A stretch of 64,000 bases of DNA from an uncultured beta proteobacterium (GTDB lineage: Bacteria > Pseudomonadota > Gammaproteobacteria > Burkholderiales > SG8-41): contig CAIVHG010000056.1 in assembly GCA_903905655.1 (NCBI GenBank), positions 1 through 64,000 of the forward strand, written 5' to 3'. Under the pieces are notes generated by a model, which made no database searches, was not told the origin of the DNA, and saw only the letters and a program-made list of their open reading frames with translations. The first letter of the stretch is position 1. Each line of letters starts with the position of its first letter. A program made the translations under genes and the position numbers. Shown here in pieces: positions 17,832 through 34,006 of the stretch.

Positions 17832-18230
17832 GACCGTGTCAGGTTTGCTCCGGGTTTCAAGCAGCCGCTAGTGTACATCGGGACGCAGTATCAACTGTGC
17901 AGTTGTTCCTTGCCGATAGCGCAATCATCTGATTGAAATTCCCCCTTCGTTATTGATGGCGGCAGCCTGCCAGCCCCGTCAGCGGGTCCGGGTGCGCGGC
18001 AATCCGTGGTACCCCCTGACGCATGCCCCACGGCCACGCGCATTTCGAACTGCAGCTACCAGCGTGACTACGGCTATCAGCTACGCCCTGATCGTATGCC
18101 GGCCAGGAATCGCGGTCAGCCGCCCCGCTTACGGCTGATAATTCGCACTACCTGACTCTTGCATCCCCCTCACTTATAATTGTTACAATCGCTAGGCAAA
18201 AGCTGCGTAACAATAGGAATAGTAGGCATC

Positions 18231-20075
18231 ATGAAAAATGGTCGGCTCGGATTACTGCTGATTGCCGTCTCGATCCTCGTAATCTCACTGATGGTCTGGC
18301 TGCTGCACGCGCATCAACTGAGAGTGCACCGCGACCAGGTACGCATCCTCGGCGTAACGCTGGTCCGCGCACTGTCGGGTGCTGCACTGGCGCAGCTGGT
18401 TCCGGAGTCAGGCGGCAGCAGCCTGCTCAATACGCTCATCAGCGTTCAGCGCAGCGACGCCTACGCCTATGGGGTGGTGCTAACCAAATCCGGAACAAAG
18501 GTTTTCGAGAACGTGGCCCCGGGCAGCATCGTGCCCGCCGCAGACATTCCGCCTGCGGATCCCTCCGCGTGGTTCGGCGAGCACACGCTGACCTCCCCCG
18601 GAGATGACCGTGAGATCCGCGAATTCTTCGGGCCGGTGCTGCAGCGCGGAGAACTCGCCGGTTTCGTCAGAGTCGGTTTCTACGCGCGCCCTCAAAGCGC
18701 GCTGCTGGGCAGCGATACGCCCTACGCCTCGGCGATGGCTTTGCTGGTCCTACTCTTCACCACGCTGCCCTATCTGCTGTTCCGGCGCGAGCTGCGCCCG
18801 CTGTTTCAGATCACATCGAGGCTCAGCGAAATCGAGCAAAGCTATGGAGGCCTGACAACCGACGTGCTGCCGGGCGGCGGCATGCGTGACTTCATGCAGC
18901 GCTTTGACCAGTTTACGCAGGTCATGCAGACGAAGGTCCGTGACCAGGAGGAGCAGCGCCTGGCAGCGCAGACCACCAGCCAGCTGCTCGCATACAAGCA
19001 GAAGAAGATGGATGCCATCTTCGATGCGATTCCCGAAGCGCTGCTGGTGATCGACGAATCATCCACGCCGAGCTACGCCAACCTGAAAATTGAGTCTTTG
19101 CTCGGCGTCAGCCGCAAGGAAGTGATCGGCATTTCCCCGCAGCAGTGGTGCAGCAACAAGGAAGTGCTGGCGCTGCTGATACGCCTCAGAAGCCATGGCG
19201 GCCCGGTTCTCAATGCCTGCAGCCTTGTGTACGTGCCTGAGGAACATTCCGACCGCAAGATTTCAGCCGTCGCTTATCCATTGTCGTCGCCCAATGCCCA
19301 GACCAAGATGCAGGGCATGCTGATCGTTTTCCGCGACATCAGCGAAGAGCAGCAGGCGCGGCAGGCGGGCGTGGAGTTCGTCGCCCACGTCGCGCACGAA
19401 CTCAAGACACCATTGAGCGGCATCAGCGCGTACAGCGAGCTGCTGTTCGATTACGCGGGGCTCGACGAAAAAACGCGCGTCACGGCGGTGAATGCGATCC
19501 ACGAGGAAGCCGTGCATGCGGCCGCGCTGATCAATAACCTGCTGAACATCTCCAAGCTCGAGACCGGCGCTCTATCGATCCACACCAAGCGCGTGAACAT
19601 GAGCGACCTGCTGCGCGAGGCCGCCGAAAATATGCGCACCAACGCAGCGGCCAGGAATGTTTCCCTGGTGCTGGACATCGCGCCAGACCTCAGTTCCGCA
19701 AAGCTCGACAAGGACATGATCCGCATCGCAATCGACAATCTGCTGGGCAATGCATTCAAGTACAGCAATCCCGGCGGAACCGTAACGCTGCGCGCGGAAA
19801 ACCTGGACGACCTGCAGATGAAAATCAGCGTGCGCGACCAGGGCATCGGCATTTCGCCGGAGGATTGCGCCAAGGTGTTCGACAAATACTACCGCTCGGG
19901 CGACAACGAGGTCGCGACCCGCAGCGGACACGGACTCGGCCTGTTCCTGGTCAAGCAAATCGTCGAAATGCACTACGGAACGATTTCAGTGAGCAGCGAA
20001 CTGGGTAAGTGGACCGAATTCACGATACAGTTCCACACCCAGACCCAGGAATTGGACGCTTCGGCCACTGCATGA
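18231..20075 (+). CDS. Sensor histidine kinase (TM + PAS-like + HisKA/HATPase_c)
   Basis: H-box VAHVAHELKTPLSGI; N box IAIDNLLGNAFKYS; G boxes VRDQGIGI, GHGLGLFLVKQIVEMH. Confidence 0.93.
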   Translation: MKNGRLGLLLIAVSILVISLMVWLLHAHQLRVHRDQVRILGVTLVRALSGAALAQLVPESGGSSLLNTLISVQRSDAYAYGVVLTKSGTKVFENVAPGSIVPAADIPPADPSAWFGEHTLTSPGDDREIREFFGPVLQRGELAGFVRVGFYARPQSALLGSDTPYASAMALLVLLFTTLPYLLFRRELRPLFQITSRLSEIEQSYGGLTTDVLPGGGMRDFMQRFDQFTQVMQTKVRDQEEQRLAAQTTSQLLAYKQKKMDAIFDAIPEALLVIDESSTPSYANLKIESLLGVSRKEVIGISPQQWCSNKEVLALLIRLRSHGGPVLNACSLVYVPEEHSDRKISAVAYPLSSPNAQTKMQGMLIVFRDISEEQQARQAGVEFVAHVAHELKTPLSGISAYSELLFDYAGLDEKTRVTAVNAIHEEAVHAAALINNLLNISKLETGALSIHTKRVNMSDLLREAAENMRTNAAARNVSLVLDIAPDLSSAKLDKDMIRIAIDNLLGNAFKYSNPGGTVTLRAENLDDLQMKISVRDQGIGISPEDCAKVFDKYYRSGDNEVATRSGHGLGLFLVKQIVEMHYGTISVSSELGKWTEFTIQFHTQTQELDASATA

Positions 20076-20473
20076 ACGCAAAGCGCATCCTGATCGCGGA
20101 CGACGAACCGCACGTCCTGCGAGTGATCGAGCTGTTCCTGCGGCGCGAGGGATACGAGATCGAGGCGGTACGCGACGGACAGCAGGCGCTCGAATCCATC
20201 CTGCGCCGTCCCCCGGACCTGCTGATCACCGACGTCAACATGCCGCGCATGACCGGCACCGCGCTTTGCCTGGAACTGAAAAAGCAATTGCCCGGGCGCG
20301 AGTTCAGGATCATCGTCATCACCTCCATGGCGGAAAGCGAGCCGCGGGAGCTGGTGGCGGACATGCCCGGCGTTTCGTTCATAGAGAAGCCCCTCAGCAT
20401 GCGCTCGCTGGTTGCCATGCTCGCAAAACTCTTCGCCACCAGCCCTGCTAAAGGAACATCAAGCGATGCCTGA
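20072..20473 (+). CDS. Response regulator receiver protein (single REC domain)
   Basis: RILIADDEPHVLRVIELFL...DLLITDVNMPRMTG...IVITSM; ATGA overlap with the upstream kinase. Confidence 0.93.
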   Translation: MNAKRILIADDEPHVLRVIELFLRREGYEIEAVRDGQQALESILRRPPDLLITDVNMPRMTGTALCLELKKQLPGREFRIIVITSMAESEPRELVADMPGVSFIEKPLSMRSLVAMLAKLFATSPAKGTSSDA

Positions 20474-21977
20474 CGGGCTGCTGAACAAAATCGATTTCGC
20501 GCGTTACGAGCGCTGGATCGCGCGCACCTCTGATCGTGCCTGCACGATTTCGGTGTACGACGCAGCGGGCGTGCAGGTCTGGGGCGAGCAAGACCCGGCC
20601 GCGGCCGAGCATGCGCGCCTGCTTCTGCAGGCGCCGCAGCGCGACGAGACCGCGGTGCAGCGCCTCGATTTGGCCGACGGCAAGACCATGCTCTATCGGC
20701 CGCTGCAGGTCGAGCATTCCGTCACCACTGGCTGGGTAACGCTCATCGCAGACGCCCAGGAAATGGCAGCCGCGCCTCTGCAGTTCGACCGTTTTGCGGA
20801 AGCGCTCGACGACGCAGCTGCCGGGATCGAAGGCGAGGCAGTCGCTAACAACGATCTCAACAAGATGGCAGAAGAGCTGGCGCAGTGCTACGAGGAACTG
20901 CATCTCGTTTATGCCACGGACGGGTATGTCAGGACGCGCGCCGGACCGCATGAAGATTCGCTGCGCGAGCTGCTGCAGTCTACGGCCGAGCACATGCATG
21001 CCGACGTCGCGGCCTTCCTGCGGCCCGACGAAAACCTTTGCGTATACGCGACCTGCCTCAGCAAGGAGATTCACAATCTCGATCTGGTGCTGGTCGAGAT
21101 GCGCGGTGACCTGTTCCGGTTCATCCAGTCTTCCAAAGAACCGCTGGTGCTCAATGCCGCGGAGGATCCGCACCGCGCGTACGTGTTCACCAACATGCCA
21201 TACCGCATACTTGCATGTCCGGTCCAGATCACGCGCAGCGTCGACGGCATCGTCGTGCTGCTAAGACACATGCAGCGCACCCCTTTCACCAACAACGACC
21301 GCCGCCTGCTGGAAGTCCTGGGAAATCAGTTGTCCAGCCTGGGCAAGAGTTTCCTGCTGGTGCGCAGCCTCAATAATTTCACCGAGCAGCTCGCGGAAGC
21401 GATGGTGCAGGCAGTAGAGGCCAAAGATCCGTACACGCGCGGCCACAGCGAGCGCGTCAACTTCCTGTCGATGGAAATCGGCCGCGCGCTGGACTTGCCA
21501 AGCGTAGAGCTCGCTGACCTGCACTGGGGATCGCTGCTGCACGACGTCGGCAAGATCGGTATTCCCGACGCGGTCCTGTGCAAGCCGGCGCGGCTGACCA
21601 AGGGTGAATACACCTTTATCAAGGTGCACCCGGAACGCAGCTACGAGATACTGCGCAATGTCGAGCAGCTGAAGAGCGCGCTGCCGGGAGCGCGGCATCA
21701 CCAGGAAATGTGGGACGGTACCGGCTATCCGCACGGTCTCAAAGGCGAGAGAATCCCGCTGCACGCGCGCATCATCGCGGTGGCCGACACCTATGACTCG
21801 ATCACCAGTTCCCGCGCCTACCGCGCAGGAAAAAGCCACGAATTCGCCATGCGCGAAATTATGCGCGTCTGCGGAACCCAGCTCGACCCCAAGATCGTGG
21901 AGGTCTTCAACACGCTGTGCGCTGCCGAGCCGGAGTGGCTGAAGCGCTTCAGCATCAGGCGCGAAGAGGTGCAGTAG
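20466..21977 (+). CDS. HD-GYP domain protein, predicted c-di-GMP phosphodiesterase, with N-terminal sensory/GAF-like region
   Basis: LLHDVGKIGIPDAVL, HHQEMWDGTGYPHGLKGERIPLHARIIAVADTYDSITSSRAYR; overlaps the response regulator gene. Confidence 0.92.
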   Translation: MPDGLLNKIDFARYERWIARTSDRACTISVYDAAGVQVWGEQDPAAAEHARLLLQAPQRDETAVQRLDLADGKTMLYRPLQVEHSVTTGWVTLIADAQEMAAAPLQFDRFAEALDDAAAGIEGEAVANNDLNKMAEELAQCYEELHLVYATDGYVRTRAGPHEDSLRELLQSTAEHMHADVAAFLRPDENLCVYATCLSKEIHNLDLVLVEMRGDLFRFIQSSKEPLVLNAAEDPHRAYVFTNMPYRILACPVQITRSVDGIVVLLRHMQRTPFTNNDRRLLEVLGNQLSSLGKSFLLVRSLNNFTEQLAEAMVQAVEAKDPYTRGHSERVNFLSMEIGRALDLPSVELADLHWGSLLHDVGKIGIPDAVLCKPARLTKGEYTFIKVHPERSYEILRNVEQLKSALPGARHHQEMWDGTGYPHGLKGERIPLHARIIAVADTYDSITSSRAYRAGKSHEFAMREIMRVCGTQLDPKIVEVFNTLCAAEPEWLKRFSIRREEVQ

Positions 21978-21983
21978 ACCAGT

Positions 21984-24017
21984 ATGGCTGAATTCGTCGC
22001 ACGTACCGTCCTCGGCGGCATCACCTATCTCGCCCCCGTCGACTCGCTTGCAAACGAGCCGATCCAGGCGGCGTTGGCGGACTCGATAAAGTCCTGCATC
22101 GCGGCCAACCGCGTTCAGCTGGTGGTGGATTTCGACCGCGTGCGGCTGGTCAACAGCAAGGCGCTGGAGATTATCCTGGATGCGAGTAACCAGCTCACGC
22201 ACCGCGGCGGCTCGCTGCGCTACGTCAATCTGTCGCACCTGCTGACGGATATCTTCATTGCAAACGGCATCATCGCTGCCGACGCCGCGCACCAGGCGGG
22301 AGCGAACGTGCTGCAACTGGCAGACCAGCACCAGCTGGGCACGAGCACTGCAAAGTTCGGCGATCTTGCGCTCGAGATGGGAGTGATCACCGGCAAGCAG
22401 CTGACCGAGGCCCTGCAGCTGCAGTCCAGATCCGGGAAGCAACTCGGCCAGATCATGCTCGAGCGCTCGATGCTCCCCGAGGTCGACCTGTTCCGCGTGC
22501 TCGGGCGCCAGATGGGCATTCCACACCTGCAGTTGCGCCCCGGCCTCTACGACCCGGCGGCAGTGTCCCTGATTTCGAAGGAGACCGCGCAACGGCTGCT
22601 GGTGCTTCCGATGTTCAAGATCTACGACACGCTGACTCTGGCGACCGCTGATCCGCAGGCGATCCCCGCACTCGATCAGATCCGGGACGCCACCCGCTGC
22701 AAGCTGCGCCTGGTGCTGTCCAGCCGCGACAACATCGCCAAGAACCTTGCCGACGCCTATGACAAGCCTGCGCATATCGTAGGCCTGGTGGATGACGTGC
22801 AAAGCGACATCGAGGTCGTCGATCAGGAGCTGCCCGCGCAATCGGTCATCGACGAAATGGCGGTAGCGAGCCCGATCATCAACCTGGTCAACGGATTGCT
22901 GCAGCGCGCGGTGCGCGAGCGCGCAAGCGACATCCACATCGAATGCTTGCGCGACAAGTCGCTGGTGCGTTTTCGCATCGACGGCGTTCTCTATGAGATT
23001 CTGACGCTGCGCACCGACATGCATCCGGCGATTGTCTCGCGCCTCAAGGTGATGGCGAAGCTCGATATCGCGGAGCGGCGCATGCCGCAGGACGGGCGCA
23101 TCCAGGTGATCACACAGGGGCGCCCGATCGACCTCAGGTTCAGTTCGCTGCCGGGCATTTTCGGCGAGAAGGTGGTGCTGCGGGTGCTCGACAAGGGGCA
23201 GTCGATCCTCGACGTCGAGAAGATCGGCATGAGCACTCCCAATCTCGAATTGTTCAAGAAGCTGCTGGGGCGCAGCTATGGCCTGATACTCGTCACCGGC
23301 CCCACCGGCAGCGGCAAGACGAGTACGCTCTACGCCGCGGTCAACTTTCTCAAGAGCATCGAGAAGAACATCGTCACCATCGAGGACCCGGTCGAATACC
23401 AGCTCGACATCATCAACCAGAACCAGGTCAACGAGGCGATCGGGCTCGGCTTCGCACGCATGTTGAGGCACGTGCTGCGTCAGGATCCTGACATCATCAT
23501 GGTGGGCGAAGTGCGCGACCGCGAGACAGCGGAAATTGCGGTGCAGGCGGCACTGACCGGGCACCTGGTGCTGTCCACGCTGCATACCAACGATTCCGTT
23601 GGCGCGCTGTCGCGCATGATCGAAATGGGAATCCCGCCCTATCTCCTGTCCTCTGCACTGGCGGGTGTAGTGGCGCAGCGCCTGGTGCGGCAGGTGTGCG
23701 ATGCGTGCCGCACCACCTTCCTTCCGCAGCCCGAACTCGCAGCCACCTATGGCTGGGGACCCTCGTTGCGGCTCGCGCGGGGACGCGGCTGCCCGGCGTG
23801 CTTCGACTCCGGCTACAAGGGGCGTTTGGGCATCTACGAGATTCTGGAGTCGACCGAGCACCTGCAGCGGCTGATGATCAAGAACCCCTCGAAAGACGAG
23901 CTGCATTCATTTGTGACGGAGAGCGGCCTCAAGACGCTGTTCGCCGACGGCCTGCAGGCCGTGGAAAAAGGGCGCACCACCCTCGAAGAGCTGTTGCGCG
24001 TCGTGAACGCCGTCTAA
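21984..24017 (+). CDS. mshE: MSHA/T2SS-type assembly ATPase with N-terminal STAS-like domain and MshEN motif
   Basis: STAS-like (LVVDFDRVRLVNSKALEIIL...GGSLRYVNLSHLLTDIFIANGI); MshEN-like KFGDLALEMGVITGKQLTEALQLQSRSGKQLGQIMLE; GspE Walker A GPTGSGKTS, GEVRDRETAEIAVQAALTGH. Confidence 0.93.
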   Translation: MAEFVARTVLGGITYLAPVDSLANEPIQAALADSIKSCIAANRVQLVVDFDRVRLVNSKALEIILDASNQLTHRGGSLRYVNLSHLLTDIFIANGIIAADAAHQAGANVLQLADQHQLGTSTAKFGDLALEMGVITGKQLTEALQLQSRSGKQLGQIMLERSMLPEVDLFRVLGRQMGIPHLQLRPGLYDPAAVSLISKETAQRLLVLPMFKIYDTLTLATADPQAIPALDQIRDATRCKLRLVLSSRDNIAKNLADAYDKPAHIVGLVDDVQSDIEVVDQELPAQSVIDEMAVASPIINLVNGLLQRAVRERASDIHIECLRDKSLVRFRIDGVLYEILTLRTDMHPAIVSRLKVMAKLDIAERRMPQDGRIQVITQGRPIDLRFSSLPGIFGEKVVLRVLDKGQSILDVEKIGMSTPNLELFKKLLGRSYGLILVTGPTGSGKTSTLYAAVNFLKSIEKNIVTIEDPVEYQLDIINQNQVNEAIGLGFARMLRHVLRQDPDIIMVGEVRDRETAEIAVQAALTGHLVLSTLHTNDSVGALSRMIEMGIPPYLLSSALAGVVAQRLVRQVCDACRTTFLPQPELAATYGWGPSLRLARGRGCPACFDSGYKGRLGIYEILESTEHLQRLMIKNPSKDELHSFVTESGLKTLFADGLQAVEKGRTTLEELLRVVNAV

Positions 24018-24026
24018 GGATCTGAA

Positions 24027-25160
24027 GTGGCAATCGAGTTCGGCTCGGCGCAGAGCGCGCCCCTGCAAGACAAATCGCAGCGCTCCCTATGGTCGCGCAT
24101 GAACAGCGACATCGGCTTCATGTCGCGCGGGCCGGGCGTCAACGAGCGCATGATGTTCACGGAACGCATCGAGCTGCTGCTGGAAACCGGCGTCAGCCTG
24201 CCGGAAGCCCTCAAGGTGATGCGGGCGCAGACCGAGGAGCAAAAGCTCGCGATCATCATCGACTCCCTGATCAAGACGGTGGATGACGGCAAGTCCTTCT
24301 CGGTGGCGCTCGCGCGTCATCCCGAGATGTTTCCGCAAACCTACGTCACCCTGGTCGCGGCGGCGGAGGAAGGAAGCTTTCTGCCCCAGGTGCTCCAGCA
24401 ACTGCGCGAGATGGATGAGCGCAACGCCGCCATGCGCAGCGTGATCATCTCGGCGCTTTCCTATCCTGCGTTCCTCGTCCTGTTTTCATTTTCGGTGGTC
24501 ATATTCGTGCTGGTCGTGATCTTTCCCAAGTTCACTGACCTGTTCAAGTCGATCCACGACCAGCTTCCTATCACAACCATCGTCCTCATGTACCTCTCCG
24601 ATGTGCTGCGCGACCATTGGCTGCTGGTGCTCGTGGTGTCGGGAGGCGGTTTGACTGGGCTAGTCTTCTGGCTAAGGACGCCGCAGGGCGTGCAGTTGCT
24701 CGACCAACTCAAGATGCGCACGCCCATCATCAAGGATGTTTTTATCCAGACCTACCTCATTCAGACGCTGAGCGTGCTTGGCATGTCGCTCGCCAACGGG
24801 GTCCCGATCAGCATTGCGCTCACGGCGACGCAGGACATCGTGCGCAACTCCCGCTTTTCACGTTTCCTGAAAGAGGTGCTCGACAACGTCGAGCAGGGCA
24901 AAGGTATCGCCCTCGGCTTCGAGCAGGCGGACTTCATCCCGCCGATGGTGCGCCAGATGATCTCCACGGGGGAACACACCGGAAACCTCGCCAAGGTCAT
25001 GAAGCGGGTTTGCGATTTCTATACGCGCGAGCTCCATAAACGCATCGCCACGTTCGCCAAAGCGATCGAGCCGGTCATGCTGATCGTGATGGGCGTCGTG
25101 GTCGGGGTCATCGTGTCTGCGCTGATCCTGCCGATCTTCAAACTTTCACGAGTGCATTAG
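24027..25160 (+). CDS. mshG: Type II secretion/pilus inner-membrane protein, GspF/MshG-like
   Basis: MMFTERIELLLETGVSLPEALKVM; QMISTGEHTGNLAKVMKRVCDFY; multiple TMs. Confidence 0.9.
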   Translation: MAIEFGSAQSAPLQDKSQRSLWSRMNSDIGFMSRGPGVNERMMFTERIELLLETGVSLPEALKVMRAQTEEQKLAIIIDSLIKTVDDGKSFSVALARHPEMFPQTYVTLVAAAEEGSFLPQVLQQLREMDERNAAMRSVIISALSYPAFLVLFSFSVVIFVLVVIFPKFTDLFKSIHDQLPITTIVLMYLSDVLRDHWLLVLVVSGGGLTGLVFWLRTPQGVQLLDQLKMRTPIIKDVFIQTYLIQTLSVLGMSLANGVPISIALTATQDIVRNSRFSRFLKEVLDNVEQGKGIALGFEQADFIPPMVRQMISTGEHTGNLAKVMKRVCDFYTRELHKRIATFAKAIEPVMLIVMGVVVGVIVSALILPIFKLSRVH

Positions 25161-25172
25161 AGGCGACCGACC

Positions 25173-25193
25173 CCGTCCGGAGCGCTCGGACGG
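25173..25193. terminator. Hairpin between convergent mshG and mshL (ccgtccg-gagcgct-cggacgg)
   Basis: 7-bp perfect stem between converging stop codons. Confidence 0.45.
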
Positions 25194-25209
25194 TCCGGAA
25201 CGGACGCTG

Positions 25210-26646
25210 TCAGTTACCGGGCTTGATTTCAGCCGGCGTCCCCTCGGTCGGAAAGCTCCCCGGCACGCGCTGCAGTGCTTTTTCGCGCTCGTTGATCAAA
25301 CTGGAAGCGCGCTCGGTTTGCCGCAGCTTTTCCTCGGCAAATCGCTCTGCGTCCTTCGCATCCTTGATCACATACGGCGTGATGATCACCACGGTTTCCT
25401 TCGAATTGACGGTTTCATTCTTGCTCGAGAAGAAATTTCCCAGGATCGGCATTTCGCCCAGGATTGGAATGCCGTTTCTCTGGTTGGAGCTCTGGGCGTT
25501 GATCAGACCGCCGATGAAGATCGACTGGCCATCCTCGCACAGCAAAGACGTAGTCACTTCCGTGCTCTTTTTAGACGGAACACCCGCGGCACTGAGCGTG
25601 GCGGAACTCACCTCCGGATGCACCTTCAGCAGCACCCGCCCCTGCTCGTCGACTGAGGGAGTGACCTTGAGAATGACGCCGGAATCCAGAAACTGGATGG
25701 TCTGCGACGTCACGAGGTTGATGGTCGTGGTCACCGAATAACCGGTGTGCTCGCCGATCACCGCGGTCGCTTCCTCGTTCTCCATCGCCAGCAGTTTCGG
25801 CGTGGCCAGCGTGCGCACCAGCCCTTTGCTCGCCAACGCGCTGAAATAAACCTCCAGATTCTGGTTCAGCAGGCTGAAGAAGAAACCCGTGGCCGGCGCG
25901 GCCGCAGTGCCGGTCGCCAGCCCCGCATTCCCGAAACTGCCGTTCAAGTTAGTGTTGCTAGGCGAACCGAATACCCGCCTCCAGTCGACGCCGTACTGCT
26001 CGCCCGCATCCAGGGTGACCTCGAGGATGCGCGCCTCGATCATGATCTGCTTGGGCTGCACGTCGAGCGACTGCAGTATGGTTTGAATGCGATCCATGTA
26101 GCCGGGGAGGTCTTCCACGACGATGAGTTTTCTTCCGATCAGCGGCGTGATCTTGCCGTAGCGGGAGATGTATTTGGCCAGCAGATCGGAGACCTGCTTG
26201 GGATCGGAATACTGCACCTTGAAGCTCTTCACCACGGTATTTGCTCCGGGATAGTCGACGCTCGACTCCTTGCCCAGGATGACGTAGCTGCCGTTGCGGA
26301 CCTCGACCCAATACCCTGCGGCTTCGGCGATGCTGTAGATCGCCTCCTTCACCGTCGTGTTGTACAGGTTTACGGTGATCGGTCCGGTCACGCCGCGCGT
26401 CAGCACGATGTTGAGCTTGTCCTTTTGCGACAGCATGTCGAACACTTCCTCGATCGGCGCCGCGCGGAAACTGTAGTTTGCCCGCTGTTCGACCGCCGCT
26501 GGGGCCGGCGCTACCGCCGATGCCTGCGCGGATGCGGGCGCAGATGCTGGTCGAGTGCCCCCGATCTGCTCGGCCGCGCGCGCCAGCGGTGCTGCGATCA
26601 GCACGCAGCCCAGGATGAAGGAAACGATTACCTGACCACAATTCAT
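25210..26646 (-). CDS. mshL: Pilus/MSHA-type secretin
   Basis: Signal peptide; secretin/TonB short domain (IEEVFDMLSQKDKLNIVLTRGVTGPITVNLYN) and secretin core (VLLKVHPEVSSATLS...IFIGGLINAQSSNQRNGIPILGEMPILGNFF); start corrected from 27177. Confidence 0.92.
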   Translation of the reverse strand: MNCGQVIVSFILGCVLIAAPLARAAEQIGGTRPASAPASAQASAVAPAPAAVEQRANYSFRAAPIEEVFDMLSQKDKLNIVLTRGVTGPITVNLYNTTVKEAIYSIAEAAGYWVEVRNGSYVILGKESSVDYPGANTVVKSFKVQYSDPKQVSDLLAKYISRYGKITPLIGRKLIVVEDLPGYMDRIQTILQSLDVQPKQIMIEARILEVTLDAGEQYGVDWRRVFGSPSNTNLNGSFGNAGLATGTAAAPATGFFFSLLNQNLEVYFSALASKGLVRTLATPKLLAMENEEATAVIGEHTGYSVTTTINLVTSQTIQFLDSGVILKVTPSVDEQGRVLLKVHPEVSSATLSAAGVPSKKSTEVTTSLLCEDGQSIFIGGLINAQSSNQRNGIPILGEMPILGNFFSSKNETVNSKETVVIITPYVIKDAKDAERFAEEKLRQTERASSLINEREKALQRVPGSFPTEGTPAEIKPGN

Positions 26647-27137
26647 TGCGACCTCCCTAGTACTGCATCCAGGCCCAGCAGGTTGCCGGCGCCCGGAGCC
26701 TCCGGTGTACTCGCTGGCGCACTCGCCGGCACGCCCGCCGGCTTGTTTGCGCTTGCCGGCTCGGGCACTGCCTGTGCCGCCTGCACCGCGCGCAGAGGCA
26801 GCGTATAACGCTTCTTGTTTTTCACGAACACCACCTCCTGCTGCCGCACTTCGACCAGGCGATAGCCGTCGATTTCTCCACCGATGCGCAGCACGACGCC
26901 ATCGACGTTGGCAAACGAATCGCTGCCTGCAACGAGCACCGCCTTCACTTCCGGCTTCCATACGGGCGCCGCCGTTTGCGCCACACCTGATCCCTGTCCC
27001 GGCCGCACGAGCTGCGCGGTCGCGGGCCTGGCAAACAGATCGTGCTGAATACCCTGCGCCTGCGCCCAGGCTATGCAGCAATAGCCTGCGACAGCGGCTG
27101 CGCTCATGCGCAATAGCATCCCATGGACGACGGTCAT
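26643..27137 (-). CDS. MshK-like pilus assembly protein
   Basis: Signal peptide; VLRIGGEIDGYRLVEVRQQEVVFVKNKKRYTLPL (GspC/PilP-like); position in operon; start corrected to MTVVHGML. Confidence 0.65.
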   Translation of the reverse strand: MTVVHGMLLRMSAAAVAGYCCIAWAQAQGIQHDLFARPATAQLVRPGQGSGVAQTAAPVWKPEVKAVLVAGSDSFANVDGVVLRIGGEIDGYRLVEVRQQEVVFVKNKKRYTLPLRAVQAAQAVPEPASANKPAGVPASAPASTPEAPGAGNLLGLDAVLGRSQ

Positions 27138-27715
27138 TTGCGCGCTCCCGCGATCTCTGCCTGCCGGTACAGCGCAACGGTCAATGCCATTGAGACCTGG
27201 CGGCCGTCGTCGGCAGATTCCATACGGAACTCCGTCACCGCCGCATTCTGTCCAAGCACATTCTCGAAATCCGTCAGCCACCGGCACAGCATGAGGTACT
27301 TCCCCTGTGCACTGACTTCGAATGCGAGTTCCTCGAATCCTTGCACTTGCCTGCGCCCACTTGGCTTGACCGCAGTCAGCACCACGCCGTTCTTCGCTGC
27401 GGCGCGGTCTAACTCCGACATCAGCACAGCCGCCATCTCATCGTCCGAACCCAGCGCGTGCAAACCGCCTGCCAAATGCTCAGAGCGTTGCCCGAGTTCA
27501 GTGGCCAACCCGCGCAATTGAGCCTGATGGCCGGGCAGATCCCTGAGGGTCGCTGCCGTGGACGATCTTGCTGACGCAAGCTGCCGGTATTGGATGACCG
27601 GCTTGGCAAGAAACAGAATCCAGCCTTCAGCCGCCACCAGGCACAGGATGCAAACCATCGACAGCAGCATCAGGCGCGGATCGAACCTTACAAGTGCGAC
27701 CATCAGCTTATCCAT
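27134..27715 (-). CDS. MshJ/PilO/GspM-like assembly protein
   Basis: N-terminal TM followed by coiled coil; ATG overlap; operon position between PilN-like and MshK-like genes. Confidence 0.7.
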   Translation of the reverse strand: MDKLMVALVRFDPRLMLLSMVCILCLVAAEGWILFLAKPVIQYRQLASARSSTAATLRDLPGHQAQLRGLATELGQRSEHLAGGLHALGSDDEMAAVLMSELDRAAAKNGVVLTAVKPSGRRQVQGFEELAFEVSAQGKYLMLCRWLTDFENVLGQNAAVTEFRMESADDGRQVSMALTVALYRQAEIAGARK

Positions 27716-28374
27716 CAGGGCTGCCTCACCGGTTGCTCATCGCACAGCAGCGAAACCCTGAAATCGACCATCTGCGCGTTGGCAGAAGTCCGCAGGTTGG
27801 TGGAAAGCAAACGCACGTCCGTAACCCCCGGCTGCCGCCCCAGCGCACGAATGTATTCCGCTACCAGCAAATGACTGAGCGCGTGACCGCTCAACTCCAC
27901 ACGCTGTTCGAATCCGCGGCTTTGCCCGGGCGCGCCGGGAGCCACAGCGTTCGTGGACGCCGCAGCTGCCGCACCTGGAGCCCCTTCGGAATTGCCTGCG
28001 ACGCCCACCTCGCTGCGGTAATAGCGGATCGCATCGAACCAGACCCCGCTCTGATATGCCGCGTCGAGAGCGTTGAACAGCCGGGGCAGGCGATTGCGCC
28101 CCCGCAGGTCCTCCAGCGCCTTCAACTTCCTCTCGACCGTCTGTATCTGCTGCCGGTAATCGTCGGCACTGGATTTCGCCTGCACCAGCGTCCGGCTTTC
28201 GGTCTCGAGGCGCTGTGCTGCGCGGCTCTCGGTCTGAATGCCCCACCCCACGAGCAGGCGCGCCAATGCCACGAGGCACACCAGCGCGGCCACGGCGATG
28301 CCGAACCACTTCATGCGGCGCCTGAGAATCTGGGCGCGCAGGTAGCTCTCAGGAATCAGGTTGAAATCGGCCAT
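27715..28374 (-). CDS. PilN/MshI2-like assembly protein
   Basis: MADFNLIPESYLRAQILRRR N-terminus, single TM, coiled coil. Confidence 0.75.
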   Translation of the reverse strand: MADFNLIPESYLRAQILRRRMKWFGIAVAALVCLVALARLLVGWGIQTESRAAQRLETESRTLVQAKSSADDYRQQIQTVERKLKALEDLRGRNRLPRLFNALDAAYQSGVWFDAIRYYRSEVGVAGNSEGAPGAAAAASTNAVAPGAPGQSRGFEQRVELSGHALSHLLVAEYIRALGRQPGVTDVRLLSTNLRTSANAQMVDFRVSLLCDEQPVRQP

Positions 28375-29504
28375 ATGTCCAGTGTGTTGCGCAAGGCGAG
28401 CCCAGTCGCCAGAACAATACCCGAAACTGACGCGACTTTCGAGAATTTATCCTTTTGGTCCTGCCGATGCGGAAATACCTTGAACGGATCGAGCACCTCG
28501 ACCGGAATCGAAAGCAGATTGCCGAGCATTTCGGCGAGGCCCGGGCAGCGCGCGATGCTGCCGATGAGATAGATCGCGTCCACGGTACGGCCGCGTGTCT
28601 TGGACCCGACATAGATCAGCGTCTTGCGGATCTCGGCCGCCAACGCCGTGAATTCAGGATGCAGCACCTCGCGCAGCGCCTGCGTAATGTCGTGCTCGGC
28701 GTCATTCGCGTTATCCGCTGCGAATCCGTACTTGAACAGCAATTGCCGCGCCTCGTTATCAGCCATCTCCAGCAGCGTCGACACTCGCGAGACCAGGCGT
28801 TGCTGCGAAAATTCGATGCCGCGGTCGAGCATCAGGCGCCGCCCCCACACGACCGTCAGATAGCTGGCTGACGTGCCGAAATTGATCAGTAGCTGGCTGG
28901 GAGGAAACTGCACATTGTCACGAATGACCCACGACATCAGGCGCGTCAGCGCAATCGGCCCGATGTCGAGCACGTCTATGCGCAATCCAGCGCCCGACAA
29001 GAGATCGAGATACGCCGTTACCTGCTTGCGGTCGGCCATTGCTACGATCGCTTCTTTCTGCTGATCGCGCACATTCTCCTGCCGCACCTGCAGCCAATCG
29101 ACCAGCACTCCGTCGGGACTGGCATTCATGCGCTCGCGCATTTCGCGCATGATGGCCTCCGCGTCAGACTCGCCCTTGGTCACACTGTAATTCACCAGCT
29201 GGATCTTGACCTGGTTACCGGGCATGCACGCGACCACGCGCTTGCCCTTGAACGGCTGCCCGTCCAGAGCGCGCTGCACTAGTGTCTTTAGTTCCTGGGG
29301 ACGTTCTTGCAAATCTGCCAGCGGACAACCATATTCGAGCGCAACGGCGGCACGGATTGCAGGCGTGCGTCCAGCGCTGCGCTGCATTTGCACCATGGAC
29401 AGGTGATGCGTCCCCATGTGCAAGCCAATGGGAAAGGTCTCTGCCCGGCCGGCGGATACCCAGCCGCGGATGCGGTTAAGTAGCTGCAAGGGTAACTTCA
29501 TCAT
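28356..29504 (-). CDS. PilM/MshI-like assembly protein
   Basis: Actin-like fold signatures: IGLHMGTHHLSMVQMQ, INFGTSASYLTVVWG, IYLIGSIARCPGLAEML. Confidence 0.82.
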   Translation of the reverse strand: MMKLPLQLLNRIRGWVSAGRAETFPIGLHMGTHHLSMVQMQRSAGRTPAIRAAVALEYGCPLADLQERPQELKTLVQRALDGQPFKGKRVVACMPGNQVKIQLVNYSVTKGESDAEAIMREMRERMNASPDGVLVDWLQVRQENVRDQQKEAIVAMADRKQVTAYLDLLSGAGLRIDVLDIGPIALTRLMSWVIRDNVQFPPSQLLINFGTSASYLTVVWGRRLMLDRGIEFSQQRLVSRVSTLLEMADNEARQLLFKYGFAADNANDAEHDITQALREVLHPEFTALAAEIRKTLIYVGSKTRGRTVDAIYLIGSIARCPGLAEMLGNLLSIPVEVLDPFKVFPHRQDQKDKFSKVASVSGIVLATGLALRNTLDIWPIST

Positions 29505-30699
29505 TCTTGTCCTTCCGGGCCGCGCTCATCTCGACCACTGAGCCGGGGCCCTTTGCCTTTGCCGTCTGCAATGCCTGGTCCGCAAGCGCGTATGCGTCCC
29601 TCAGCGAAACCTCTAACCCCGGCGGCACGCGCCCTACGCCTATGCTGACGCTCGCCAACTCGGGCGCATCCGGGCGCTTCTCGTGGCGCCGATCGAGTGC
29701 GCCGGACACTCGATTCGTGCGCTGCGAAGCATCCTCCCCCAGCAGCAGCATGACAAACTCGTCCCCGCCGACACGAACCACGTAGTCATCGGGACCGCAC
29801 GCCGCTTCCAACACCTCCACCAGTCGTTTCAGCACGCGGTCTCCGTGCAGGTGGCCGAAAGTGTCGTTGAAGTGCTTGAACTTATCCACGTCCACATTGC
29901 ACACACAATACCCCTGCCCGGCAAGCTGGTAACGCGCAAGGACATCGTTGCAGCGTTCCTCGAAGAAACGGCGGTTCCACGCACCGGTCAGCCCATCCTG
30001 CATGGCGCTGAGGTCGAGCTTCTCGTTCGAGCGCGTCAGTTGAAAGCGCGCCTCCAGATGCTCTTTGCGCACGGCGGTGGCGCGCCACACCAAAGCCAGC
30101 GCGACCGACGCTGCGCTCACCATCAGGAACTGCAGCGTCCACAGTGCCTCAGTGGTGAACGGCCGCGCCGCGCGCAGTGTCGAGACAGTGAAGATCACGT
30201 ATACGACGCCGATGGTGATCAGCGCCTCGCGCACTCCCCAGGGGACCAGCGGCACCACCATGATCAGCAACACCAGGCTGCTGAAGAGTGTTGTGTTAAA
30301 ACTGCCAGAACGAAGTGCGAGCAGCGCAAAGGCAAGCGCGCCCACCGACAGCAGCACCATGCCCAGCACGTAGAACAACTGGGTGTCCGCGGTCTTCCTC
30401 AGCATTTTCGCCGACAGCGCCACGTGCAGCGCAAGCAACGCCAGCACCGCAAAGGTATACAAATAGCCTACGCCCAAGCCCAGCGCGAGTTGCAGCAGCG
30501 CGAATCCCGCCATCAGCAACATGCTCAGGATACCCAGCGTAAAGATCCCGTCCTCGGCTTCCTTGCGCATGACCAAACGCGCGAAGCGCGTCAGGTCTTC
30601 CGCGTCGAAGTCGGAGGACGACCAAATCTTGCGCAGCAATTTCAAGTCAGCCACCCACCGCATTGCGGGCAGCCCGCGAAAGCGCTCTGGCAGTTGCAT
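29476..30699 (-). CDS. Membrane-anchored GGDEF diguanylate cyclase
   Basis: About 6 TMs then DGLTGAWNRRFFEER...NVDVDKFKHFNDTFGHLHGD...VRVGGDEFVMLL. Confidence 0.92.
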   Translation of the reverse strand: MQLPERFRGLPAMRWVADLKLLRKIWSSSDFDAEDLTRFARLVMRKEAEDGIFTLGILSMLLMAGFALLQLALGLGVGYLYTFAVLALLALHVALSAKMLRKTADTQLFYVLGMVLLSVGALAFALLALRSGSFNTTLFSSLVLLIMVVPLVPWGVREALITIGVVYVIFTVSTLRAARPFTTEALWTLQFLMVSAASVALALVWRATAVRKEHLEARFQLTRSNEKLDLSAMQDGLTGAWNRRFFEERCNDVLARYQLAGQGYCVCNVDVDKFKHFNDTFGHLHGDRVLKRLVEVLEAACGPDDYVVRVGGDEFVMLLLGEDASQRTNRVSGALDRRHEKRPDAPELASVSIGVGRVPPGLEVSLRDAYALADQALQTAKAKGPGSVVEMSAARKDKNDEVTLAAT

Positions 30700-30915
30700 A
30701 ACATGTGCATTGCAGCATCGGTCCTGATATCCGATTCATGGTTGCGCTTCCTGCTAAGCGCCGAAAGCGCCAAGTATTTTAACCCACCTGCCCGCAAGTC
30801 CGCCTGCGCGCCGTTTGGAACCACCATTTGCGGGACGGGACCATATGCCTCCGGCATCGACTCCATGAATCGCACGGTCGGAAACGTCGGTTCGGCAGCC
30901 ATTCTGGCAGCCCCT

Positions 30916-32496
30916 CTACTGATAGGTGATCACGAGTTGAGGCTGGTTTGCCGCAGTTGCATTTTCCCTGCTGGGTAGCGTCGGCTGGTCGCTCACGGTG
31001 GAGATCAGGATCACGCCGTAGTTGTTAGTGCTGCCTGCCACCCAGGATTTCACCAGCGCCGTCAGGTCCCAATAAATCCAGCCGGTGCTGAAGTTGGAGG
31101 CCGGCGGCGAGTTTCCGCTGGCCTCATCGGTCGCCATCGCTATGCTGGGAGTACTGTAGGTGCCGCCCGCGGTGGTCCACGCCGAAAAGCCGTTGCGTGT
31201 ATTGTAAGTGACGGCATTGCCGGGACTGCTGCCATTGGCCGTACCCTCGACCCAGGACTGGGTAATCGTATATGCGGAGATCGTCTTCGTATTGCCTGAG
31301 GGAGTGCCCATCGCGGTCGAATCCAGCCGCAGCTTCGCACTTTGTATGGTCGAGCCCGGCGGCACGCTGCTGAAGTCGAACTGTAGCAGCGTGCGGGTCT
31401 GTCGCACCCCGGAGTTATAGACGGACAGCGGCGTCGTCCCGCCAAAATTCTGCGTCACCGCCCCGCTGTCGATGTAGCTGTCGGCGCTCGGCGTCAGAGT
31501 CTGGGTGCAGGGCGCGAGATAGTTGAGCGCGAATGTAGGATGCAGCCCCCCAGAGCCGTCATCACTACTTGCATAATGGAGACTGTTGATGCTGCCGGTC
31601 GAAACACGCAGCCGCACGCCATAATTGGAATAGAGGGTGCCCATCCACGCCGCCGCTACATTCGTGAGATCCCAGCTGTTCCAGTTACTGAGCTGCGAAT
31701 AGTTGACGGTGACCAATGGCGCAGAATTGTAGCCAGTGCCCGACCAGGCGTTGACGCCATCGTAGGTGTTCCACGTCACGCCATCCGCCGTCCCGAATCC
31801 GGTTTTCGTCCCTTCCACCCAGTTGCTGGTGAGCAGATAAGCGCTGACCTTGACGCCCGCCCCCCCGGAATTCGTGGTCTGATACAGGGACAGGTTGGCA
31901 CCGGGCTGCAGCGCCGTCCCGTTGTACCAACCGACGATGCGGCTGCCTGCCGCGAGGCTGGATAGATCGAATCTCAGCAGCGCCTCGCTCCCGCTATCCA
32001 GCACCAGCCGATCGTCGGCACCGTAATTCCTGGTGGGCCTTGATGGGTCGACAGTGGCATCCTGACTGCTTCCCGGCCCGGGTTGCAGCGTGGCAGACTT
32101 TCTAGAAGACTGGAACACCAGCACGTTGGAGCGCGTGAGCGTGACTGCGGTGCCGTTGTATGTGCCGGTAGAGGTCAGCGTCAGCGTGGTGCCGGTCGCC
32201 TGATTGGCATATGCCGAATACGATGCGCCACCGAAATTGTTGTTTATGACTGGCGAACCCGAAACGGGAAACCCTCCCCCGCAGCCCTTCTGCTGCACTT
32301 GATAGTTTGCGGCCTGCAAACCGGCCTCGGCCGCATAACGCGCGCGGTCCACGTCGGACTGATTGGCAGTGATCGCGGCATTGGTGGCGCTGTCTCGGTT
32401 GAGCAGATACGCGATGGCGGCGATCATGCTCATCGCGAACACGACCGGCAGCAGCGTAAAGCCAAGCTGTCTCACGCGGCGTGCAGCGCCGTTCAC
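30916..32496 (-). CDS. Pilin-like (MshP/PilX/GspK-type N-terminus) protein with two tandem DNRLRE domains
   Basis: N-terminal GFTLLPVVFAMSMIAAIAYLL; two repeats with FDLSSL/FDFSSVPPGSTIQSAKLRL, NWVEGT/SWVEGT, NYGVRL/NYGVIL. Confidence 0.82.
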   Translation of the reverse strand: MNGAARRVRQLGFTLLPVVFAMSMIAAIAYLLNRDSATNAAITANQSDVDRARYAAEAGLQAANYQVQQKGCGGGFPVSGSPVINNNFGGASYSAYANQATGTTLTLTSTGTYNGTAVTLTRSNVLVFQSSRKSATLQPGPGSSQDATVDPSRPTRNYGADDRLVLDSGSEALLRFDLSSLAAGSRIVGWYNGTALQPGANLSLYQTTNSGGAGVKVSAYLLTSNWVEGTKTGFGTADGVTWNTYDGVNAWSGTGYNSAPLVTVNYSQLSNWNSWDLTNVAAAWMGTLYSNYGVRLRVSTGSINSLHYASSDDGSGGLHPTFALNYLAPCTQTLTPSADSYIDSGAVTQNFGGTTPLSVYNSGVRQTRTLLQFDFSSVPPGSTIQSAKLRLDSTAMGTPSGNTKTISAYTITQSWVEGTANGSSPGNAVTYNTRNGFSAWTTAGGTYSTPSIAMATDEASGNSPPASNFSTGWIYWDLTALVKSWVAGSTNNYGVILISTVSDQPTLPSRENATAANQPQLVITYQ

Positions 32497-33002
32497 TGCG
32501 TGCCCCCGCCGAGCCGCGTGCTCAGCGCCAGCGTCACCGTGTTCTTGCTAGTTGGGTCAGTCATGCTCAGCGTGAGATTCAGCGTGGGATCGTCGACCGC
32601 GCCTGTGTTAGACGGCGCCTGCACCGTAAACGAGGTCACATTGTTCGCGATGACTGTCGTTCCCGTGCAGGTGCTGTCGGCAGTGGTGGTTTCGATCAGC
32701 AGATTTCCAGACTTGAGGCAATACATTGTCGGCGCCAGCCAGTCGCCGCTGGTATTGGCGGCAGGAGTCGTGGACAACAGCTTTGGCGCGAGGCTGCTTG
32801 CCTTCGTCGCCATCCGCTGCAGCGCGAACGTGCCTTGATACGTAATCTCGTTCGTGCCACGCCCCGAAGTGTACGCGTCCAGTCCGAGCTTGACCAATGA
32901 GTTGAGCGCAGCGAGGATGATGGCGCCGATCACGACCGCGAACATGACTTCGATCAGCATCAGCCCACTTTGTTTAACCCGCGCCACCATCGTCACCACC
33001 AT
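32493..33002 (-). CDS. Type IV prepilin-like protein (MshO-like)
   Basis: Class III signal SG|LMLIEVMFAVVIGAIILAAL. Confidence 0.75.
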   Translation of the reverse strand: MVVTMVARVKQSGLMLIEVMFAVVIGAIILAALNSLVKLGLDAYTSGRGTNEITYQGTFALQRMATKASSLAPKLLSTTPAANTSGDWLAPTMYCLKSGNLLIETTTADSTCTGTTVIANNVTSFTVQAPSNTGAVDDPTLNLTLSMTDPTSKNTVTLALSTRLGGGTQ

Positions 33003-33430
33003 TGACCGATCAGCGTGCTGAGCGCATTCGCGCTGCCGTCGGACTCGTAATACACCTGCACGTAGAGCAGTCCGGTATCATTGTTGCTGAGGCCATTGCT
33101 ACCCGTATCGAAGCGGTAGAGCACCACCACGCGGCGATTGGCGCTCCCCGCGGCATCGGAAAAAGTCGTGCTCACCGCGCTCGTCGTGTTGCCGCCGGCG
33201 GCATAGGTTTCCTTGTAGAGGTCGTAGAAAGGTTTGGCGAGCACCTCTTCCATCTTGGCGCGCAGCCCCACCTGCTGCGTCGCGATGGCACTCGAACTGC
33301 CCGCGACCCCCGACTGCAGCGCCTGCAGTGCCGGCACCAGCAATATGCCCAACAGCACGACGGAAAGCAACACCTCGACGTAGGCATAGCCGCTGCGGGC
33401 CAGGCTGCATTTTGAATCGGCGTACAACAT
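32993..33430 (-). CDS. Type IV prepilin-like protein (MshD-like)
   Basis: SG|YAYVEVLLSVVLLGILLVPAL. Confidence 0.75.
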   Translation of the reverse strand: MLYADSKCSLARSGYAYVEVLLSVVLLGILLVPALQALQSGVAGSSSAIATQQVGLRAKMEEVLAKPFYDLYKETYAAGGNTTSAVSTTFSDAAGSANRRVVVLYRFDTGSNGLSNNDTGLLYVQVYYESDGSANALSTLIGQWW

Positions 33431-33439
33431 GAAGTGTGG

Positions 33440-34006
33440 TTAGGGCAGCGTGACGAGCCCGGTCACCTCGTTGAATAAAACCGTGGAACTCTGAGATCCG
33501 AGAGTCAACACCACGCCGCTGCCTGACTGCAGCACGCCCTCGAATCCGCCGTCCGAATACGCGTTGAACCGGTTCGGCTGGTTAACAGGACCGATGAGCA
33601 GCTGGTTGCGCGCGGAGCCGCCGGCCATGAACTTCGGCGTGACGGTCACTCCGCTGGAAAATGCTGAACCGTTGATGTTGAGATCGAGCGCGCGTTTGGT
33701 GAGCGGATCGGTCACGGCGCCCTGCGTGTTACCTGAAGAATTCGCCGTATATATCTTGAGGTGGCCGCTCGTGCTGCCGTCGATTAGGATATAGCCGCCG
33801 GTGCGGTTCGCCTCGGCGAGCGCAAAGCGCATCGCGTTCGCGACCTCCTCCGCCGCAGCATCGACCTTTTTCGAATCCGCCGTTGAAAAACGCGGCGCCG
33901 CCACTGCGGCGACGAGCGCGATGACTACCAGAGTGAAGAGAATTTCAACGAGCGCGTATCCCCGCGCCCGCTGCGACTGAACGCCCACGTCCCGCCGGAT
34001 TCCCAC
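33440..34006 (-). CDS. Type IV prepilin-like protein (MshC-like)
   Basis: RG|YALVEILFTLVVIALVAAVAAPRF. Confidence 0.8.
   Translation of the reverse strand: MGIRRDVGVQSQRARGYALVEILFTLVVIALVAAVAAPRFSTADSKKVDAAAEEVANAMRFALAEANRTGGYILIDGSTSGHLKIYTANSSGNTQGAVTDPLTKRALDLNINGSAFSSGVTVTPKFMAGGSARNQLLIGPVNQPNRFNAYSDGGFEGVLQSGSGVVLTLGSQSSTVLFNEVTGLVTLP

Follow-up and report, generated by a model that had tools for sequence, protein, structure and literature searches.

The pilus locus and its STAS-bearing motor

The window, that is, the whole 64,000-nucleotide stretch of DNA that was analysed, holds a pilus locus whose motor gene is a single open reading frame of 677 codons without interruption (21984-24017, + strand). 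The 677-aa product begins with a STAS domain (residues 1-97; 21984-22274, +), followed by a variable linker (residues 98-123; 22275-22352, +), the tandem 24-residue c-di-GMP motifs of an MshEN domain (residues 124-147 and 153-176; 22353-22511, +), the remaining MshEN or T2SSE N-terminal domain (PF05157, residues 177-261; 22512-22766, +), and a complete T2SSE/PilB-type motor ATPase (PF00437, residues 295-672; 22866-23999, +). The Pfam matches were strong for both the motor (E=9e-134) and MshEN (E=3e-13). The features of a PilB/GspE extension motor are present in the T2SSE domain, with a Walker A sequence (GPTGSGKTS), TIEDPVE, and related motifs. The motor scored below the named equivalog cut-offs for GspE (580 vs 630 bits) and PilB (555 vs 676 bits), and it was therefore assigned to a separate motor subfamily. 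The STAS-MshEN-T2SSE architecture is confirmed. The STAS-MshEN-GspE fusion proposed in the earlier note was borne out by Pfam/NCBIfam matches, a family profile, an AlphaFold model, and Foldseek, and the motif strings quoted there occur in the protein as given.

Upstream in the same operon, a sensor histidine kinase (PAS-HisKA-HATPase by Pfam; 18180-20075, +) was found, which adjoins the fusion in most loci. A conserved stand-alone receiver (REC, PF00072; 20072-20473, +) overlaps the kinase stop by 4 bases. The next gene, for a GAF-HD-GYP c-di-GMP phosphodiesterase (HD_5, E=3e-35, and GAF; 20466-21977, +), overlaps the receiver gene by 8 bases and ends 6 bases before the fusion gene. The GspF/PilC-type platform protein (PF00482; 24027-25160, +) starts after a gap of 9 bases, and the gene spacing from kinase to GspF is that of an operon.

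Downstream, a convergent block contains an ORF with an MshL/GspD-type secretin (PF00263; 25210-27177, −), the PilO, PilN, and PilM alignment-complex genes (Pfam; 27134-29504, −), a membrane GGDEF diguanylate cyclase (PF00990, E=5e-31; 29476-30699, −), and prepilin-like genes identified by domain matches (30916-34006, −). With GspF, PilM/N/O, a secretin, and prepilins, the operon has the composition of an MSHA-like type IV pilus. Given the diguanylate cyclase inside the pilus block, c-di-GMP synthesis and breakdown are both encoded at the locus. One long prepilin-like protein (30916-32496, −; 525 aa) carries three CBM96-like stretches, is conserved in many related operons, and is a candidate pilus-tip adhesin. 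The regulator-motor-GspF and secretin-to-prepilin blocks are convergent in the window (24027-34006) and run in one direction in most relatives, which represents a local inversion.

Fold of the N-terminal domain

When the isolated N-terminus was submitted to Pfam, STAS_2 (E=6e-6) and STAS (E=0.003) were matched, both under the gathering cut-off; the window copy alone reached 26.7 bits against a cut-off of 29.2. As this single match was weak, relatives were collected. Scanned one by one, 16 of 18 diverse relatives matched STAS (PF01740) and 15 matched STAS_2 (PF13466), with a best E of 6e-11. The 14-sequence family profile matched RsfB, SpoIIAA, and RsbV in the PDB (best E 9e-5).

The AlphaFold model of residues 1-120, built with the 14-sequence alignment, adopts a beta-beta-alpha-beta-alpha-beta-alpha order with a mean pLDDT of 81, reaching at least 88 for residues 11-90; the tail past residue 100 is low-confidence (pLDDT <50 from residue 101). 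A model of the whole protein from the single sequence was uninformative (pLDDT 37). In the Foldseek search with the N-terminal model, the top 16 matches were all STAS proteins, as were 22 of the 23 matches at E <= 0.001; an anti-sigma-factor antagonist, RsbV, and SpoIIAA came first, and MlaB ranked lower. As judged from the predicted structure, the STAS fold assignment of residues 1-97 is real despite the sub-threshold Pfam score. On the evidence of both fold and sequence, residues 1-110 are not a standard GspE N1 domain. Among the checks named in the earlier note, the HMM match of the single copy stayed below threshold, and the relatives, the profile, and the AlphaFold model of the N-terminus all indicated STAS instead of GspE N1.

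The c-di-GMP site of MshEN

The NCBIfam model 'cyclic di-GMP-binding domain, MshE-related' (NF053729) matched residues 124-176 above its cut-off (44.6 vs 38 bits). The layout of the domain is correct, comprising two 24-residue motifs, a 5-residue spacer, and the contact Gly and Gln residues, which correspond to Gly11/Gly40 and Gln32/Gln61 of the motif of Wang et al. 2016 (PMC5013675). These contacts are kept in nearly all of the 47 orthologues: Gln147 in 47, Gln176 in 46, Gly126 in 46, and Gly155 in 47. The first residue of motif 2 in the window protein is Gln instead of Arg, which falls outside the relaxed published motif. Most orthologues violate this relaxed motif at the same residue or elsewhere, with motif 1 passing in 34/47 and motif 2 in 8/47. 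The MshE protein binds c-di-GMP (PMC5013675), and the MshEN domain of the fusion probably does so too.

Spread, age, and constraint of the fusion

Orthologues with full STAS-MshEN coverage were found in 2 of the 73 further genomes from the family of the window and 3 others of a 399-genome sample of the order, whereas 25 of 62 genomes carried them in the genus that holds the Massilia species. The class sample (Gammaproteobacteria) yielded about 16 of 369 genomes, and a 399-genome sample of the phylum yielded one orthologue-bearing genome from another class; each of these counts is a minimum for its sample. In addition, genome_contigs contained 13 orthologous loci, 10 of them from Massilia.

All motor paralogues of 16 genomes were then compared with the window core. 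Identity to it was 61-74% for STAS-bearing cores from the other genomes and at most 51% for the remaining motors, and every core above 60% carried STAS. In the tree, a single branch (support 100/99) separates all 29 STAS-bearing motor cores from the STAS-less paralogues. These sequence relationships are most simply explained by a single fusion event whose product was then kept. By the same comparisons, the architecture is old and vertically inherited, in a clade that spans two classes. A recent fusion or an assembly artefact was rejected by synteny and by the tree.

The mean pairwise identity among the 47 orthologues was 0.47 for STAS, 0.22 for the linker, and 0.76 for the motor; STAS is under tighter constraint than the linker and looser constraint than the motor, and it has invariant core positions. 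The closest Massilia pairs gave a dN/dS of roughly 0.1-0.5 for STAS vs 0.04-0.19 for the core.

Variation of the regulatory cassette

The typical locus order is histidine kinase, lone receiver, GAF-type c-di-GMP enzyme, STAS motor, GspF, prepilins, PilM/N/O, and secretin. The enzyme slot is occupied by HD-GYP in the window and in the Massilia loci and by GGDEF-EAL in most others (for example, the GAF-GGDEF-EAL enzyme at L087:2557-4812), with a related GAF-type N-terminus kept. The slot thus displays an apparent phosphodiesterase fold swap, in which Burkholderiales have HD-GYP and other lineages GGDEF-EAL. The EAL motifs of the slot enzymes are mostly intact and the GGDEF motifs often degenerate, so what is conserved seems to be a phosphodiesterase. 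The fold swap behind a related N-terminus, within one operon slot, suggests that c-di-GMP hydrolysis itself is the function that is kept and needed.

No relative of the phosphodiesterase N-terminus was detectable anywhere in genomes G023, G084, and G528, all of which keep the STAS motor; therefore, this enzyme cannot be the sole STAS partner. In two loci from Betaproteobacteria MAGs (L022 and L023), the STAS motor is kept, and unrelated genes (an oxidoreductase and others) replace the kinase-receiver-phosphodiesterase cassette. A further locus without the phosphodiesterase encodes a 706-aa histidine-kinase-like protein (L094:14770-16887, −), the N-terminal part of which resembles the N-terminus of the operon phosphodiesterase.

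Comparison with known systems

Known settings of STAS domains include sigma-factor switches, anion transporters, and MlaB-MlaF. The anti-sigma factor antagonists SpoIIAA, RsbV, and RsfB share their fold with the window domain, as well as the phospho-site Ser with the window copy. However, the window STAS is fused to a motor ATPase, the Ser is absent in nearly all Burkholderiales copies of the fusion, and the fusion loci have no linked anti-sigma kinase or phosphatase. The nearest mechanistic precedent is MlaB-MlaF, in which STAS acts on a transport ATPase; there, the STAS protein MlaB stands alone, and its target MlaF belongs to the ABC ATPases rather than the PilB-type motors.

The MSHA pilus ATPase MshE of Vibrio cholerae has the same MshEN motif pair, T2SSE motor, and pilus gene context, whereas its description in the main text of PMC5013675 mentions no STAS, and motif 2 of the window protein differs in its first residue. 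MshEN is likewise joined to signalling domains in other proteins; the partners given in the main text of Wang et al. 2016 (PMC5013675) are REC, HD-GYP, CheA, CheX, cyclase, and kinase domains, and STAS is absent from them. Among open-licence papers, we found none joining STAS with MshEN, PilB, GspE, or secretion ATPases. The STAS-motor fusion appears to be previously undescribed, and this agrees with the earlier note, which knew of no functional description of the architecture.

Proposed role of the STAS domain

With moderate confidence, we propose that STAS serves as a docking or allosteric module on the c-di-GMP-gated extension motor of an MSHA-like type IV pilus. The fusion protein would be the extension motor, and c-di-GMP on MshEN would license its ATPase activity. 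Tethered by a flexible linker, STAS would dock a partner through which the motor is controlled or positioned. This partner is most likely a co-encoded regulator, either the lone receiver or the GAF phosphodiesterase, or else a further component of the pilus base. Signalling would then run in a local c-di-GMP loop from the kinase to the receiver and on to the phosphodiesterase and the motor, and the phosphodiesterase would remove the ligand at the site of motor activity. The docking role is our best reading by analogy with MlaB, a STAS protein that binds and stabilises the MlaF ATPase (PMC7367683). The proposal starts from the observed architecture, predicted fold, single origin, synteny, conserved c-di-GMP contact residues, and mostly intact phosphodiesterase motifs; from these we infer c-di-GMP binding, docking, the identity of the partner, and the direction of the effect. 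The earlier note had suggested a phospho-switch or partner control on top of c-di-GMP binding. Control added to c-di-GMP binding is plausible, with a c-di-GMP phosphodiesterase gene directly upstream, and partner docking is the better half of the suggestion.

The main rival is a purely structural role, in which STAS caps or stabilises the hexameric motor, or tethers it to the platform, without signal input. We consider this possible but unlikely. The retention of STAS even where the phosphodiesterase is absent, its one-to-one tie to the motor clade, and the dependence of MlaF stability on MlaB (PMC7367683) are consistent with such a role, whereas the very variable linker and the regulators that stay adjacent in most loci speak against it. 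A two-input motor, gated jointly by c-di-GMP on MshEN and by a partner-switching signal on STAS, through the lone receiver or through a Ser58 kinase in the Ser lineages, is somewhat more doubtful. If true, it would extend the logic of the stressosome to a secretion/pilus ATPase.

A phospho-switch was evaluated at the SpoIIAA-58 position. The HMMER alignment pairs the SpoIIAA Asp-Ser-Ser-Gly with the family loop, and therefore Ser58 of the window protein equals SpoIIAA Ser58. Ser/Thr is broadly conserved at this site among STAS proteins and is phosphorylated in SpoIIAA, RsbS, and RsbR (PMC7367683). Across the 47 orthologues, a phosphorylatable residue is not conserved, with 15 Ser, 31 Gly, and 1 Asn. 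The window copy is the only Burkholderiales copy with Ser, and all 30 others examined have Gly; outside Burkholderiales, 14 of 16 copies have Ser and two have Gly or Asn. The G1182 copy also has Ser (LISSRALE). Among the first 29 orthologues, Ser58 had seemed peculiar to the window; the class-wide sample overturned this, as Ser is common outside Burkholderiales. The putative phospho-site is lineage-dependent, not absent.

Under this alternative, an RsbW/SpoIIAB-like or other kinase would phosphorylate Ser58, releasing or recruiting a partner and thus gating the pilus motor. The Ser-bearing copies fit this scheme, but the Gly and Asn copies do not, and RsbW-type kinases do not follow the residue. 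No SpoIIE phosphatase match was found in the window's genome (70% complete), nor a strong RsbW-type kinase, the best HATPase_c_2 match being only 29 bits. No correlation between Ser58 and RsbW-type kinases was found, with strong matches in Gly-type genomes and none in several Ser-type genomes, and the conserved neighbourhood contains no recognisable serine kinase. A general phospho-switch at Ser58 is not supported, although a lineage-specific one may operate; we judge the explanation as a whole improbable, and the phospho-switch half of the earlier suggestion is weak. It is very improbable that STAS is a functionless relic of one fusion, since, despite its looser constraint than the motor and low single-sequence Pfam score, no known member of the old two-class clade lacks it, its dN/dS falls well below 1 between the closest pairs, and it has invariant core positions.

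This clade of motors with a built-in STAS, usually accompanied by their own kinase, receiver, and phosphodiesterase, is a compact example in which local c-di-GMP signalling at a pilus machine can be put to the test. The system is present in cultured Massilia strains.
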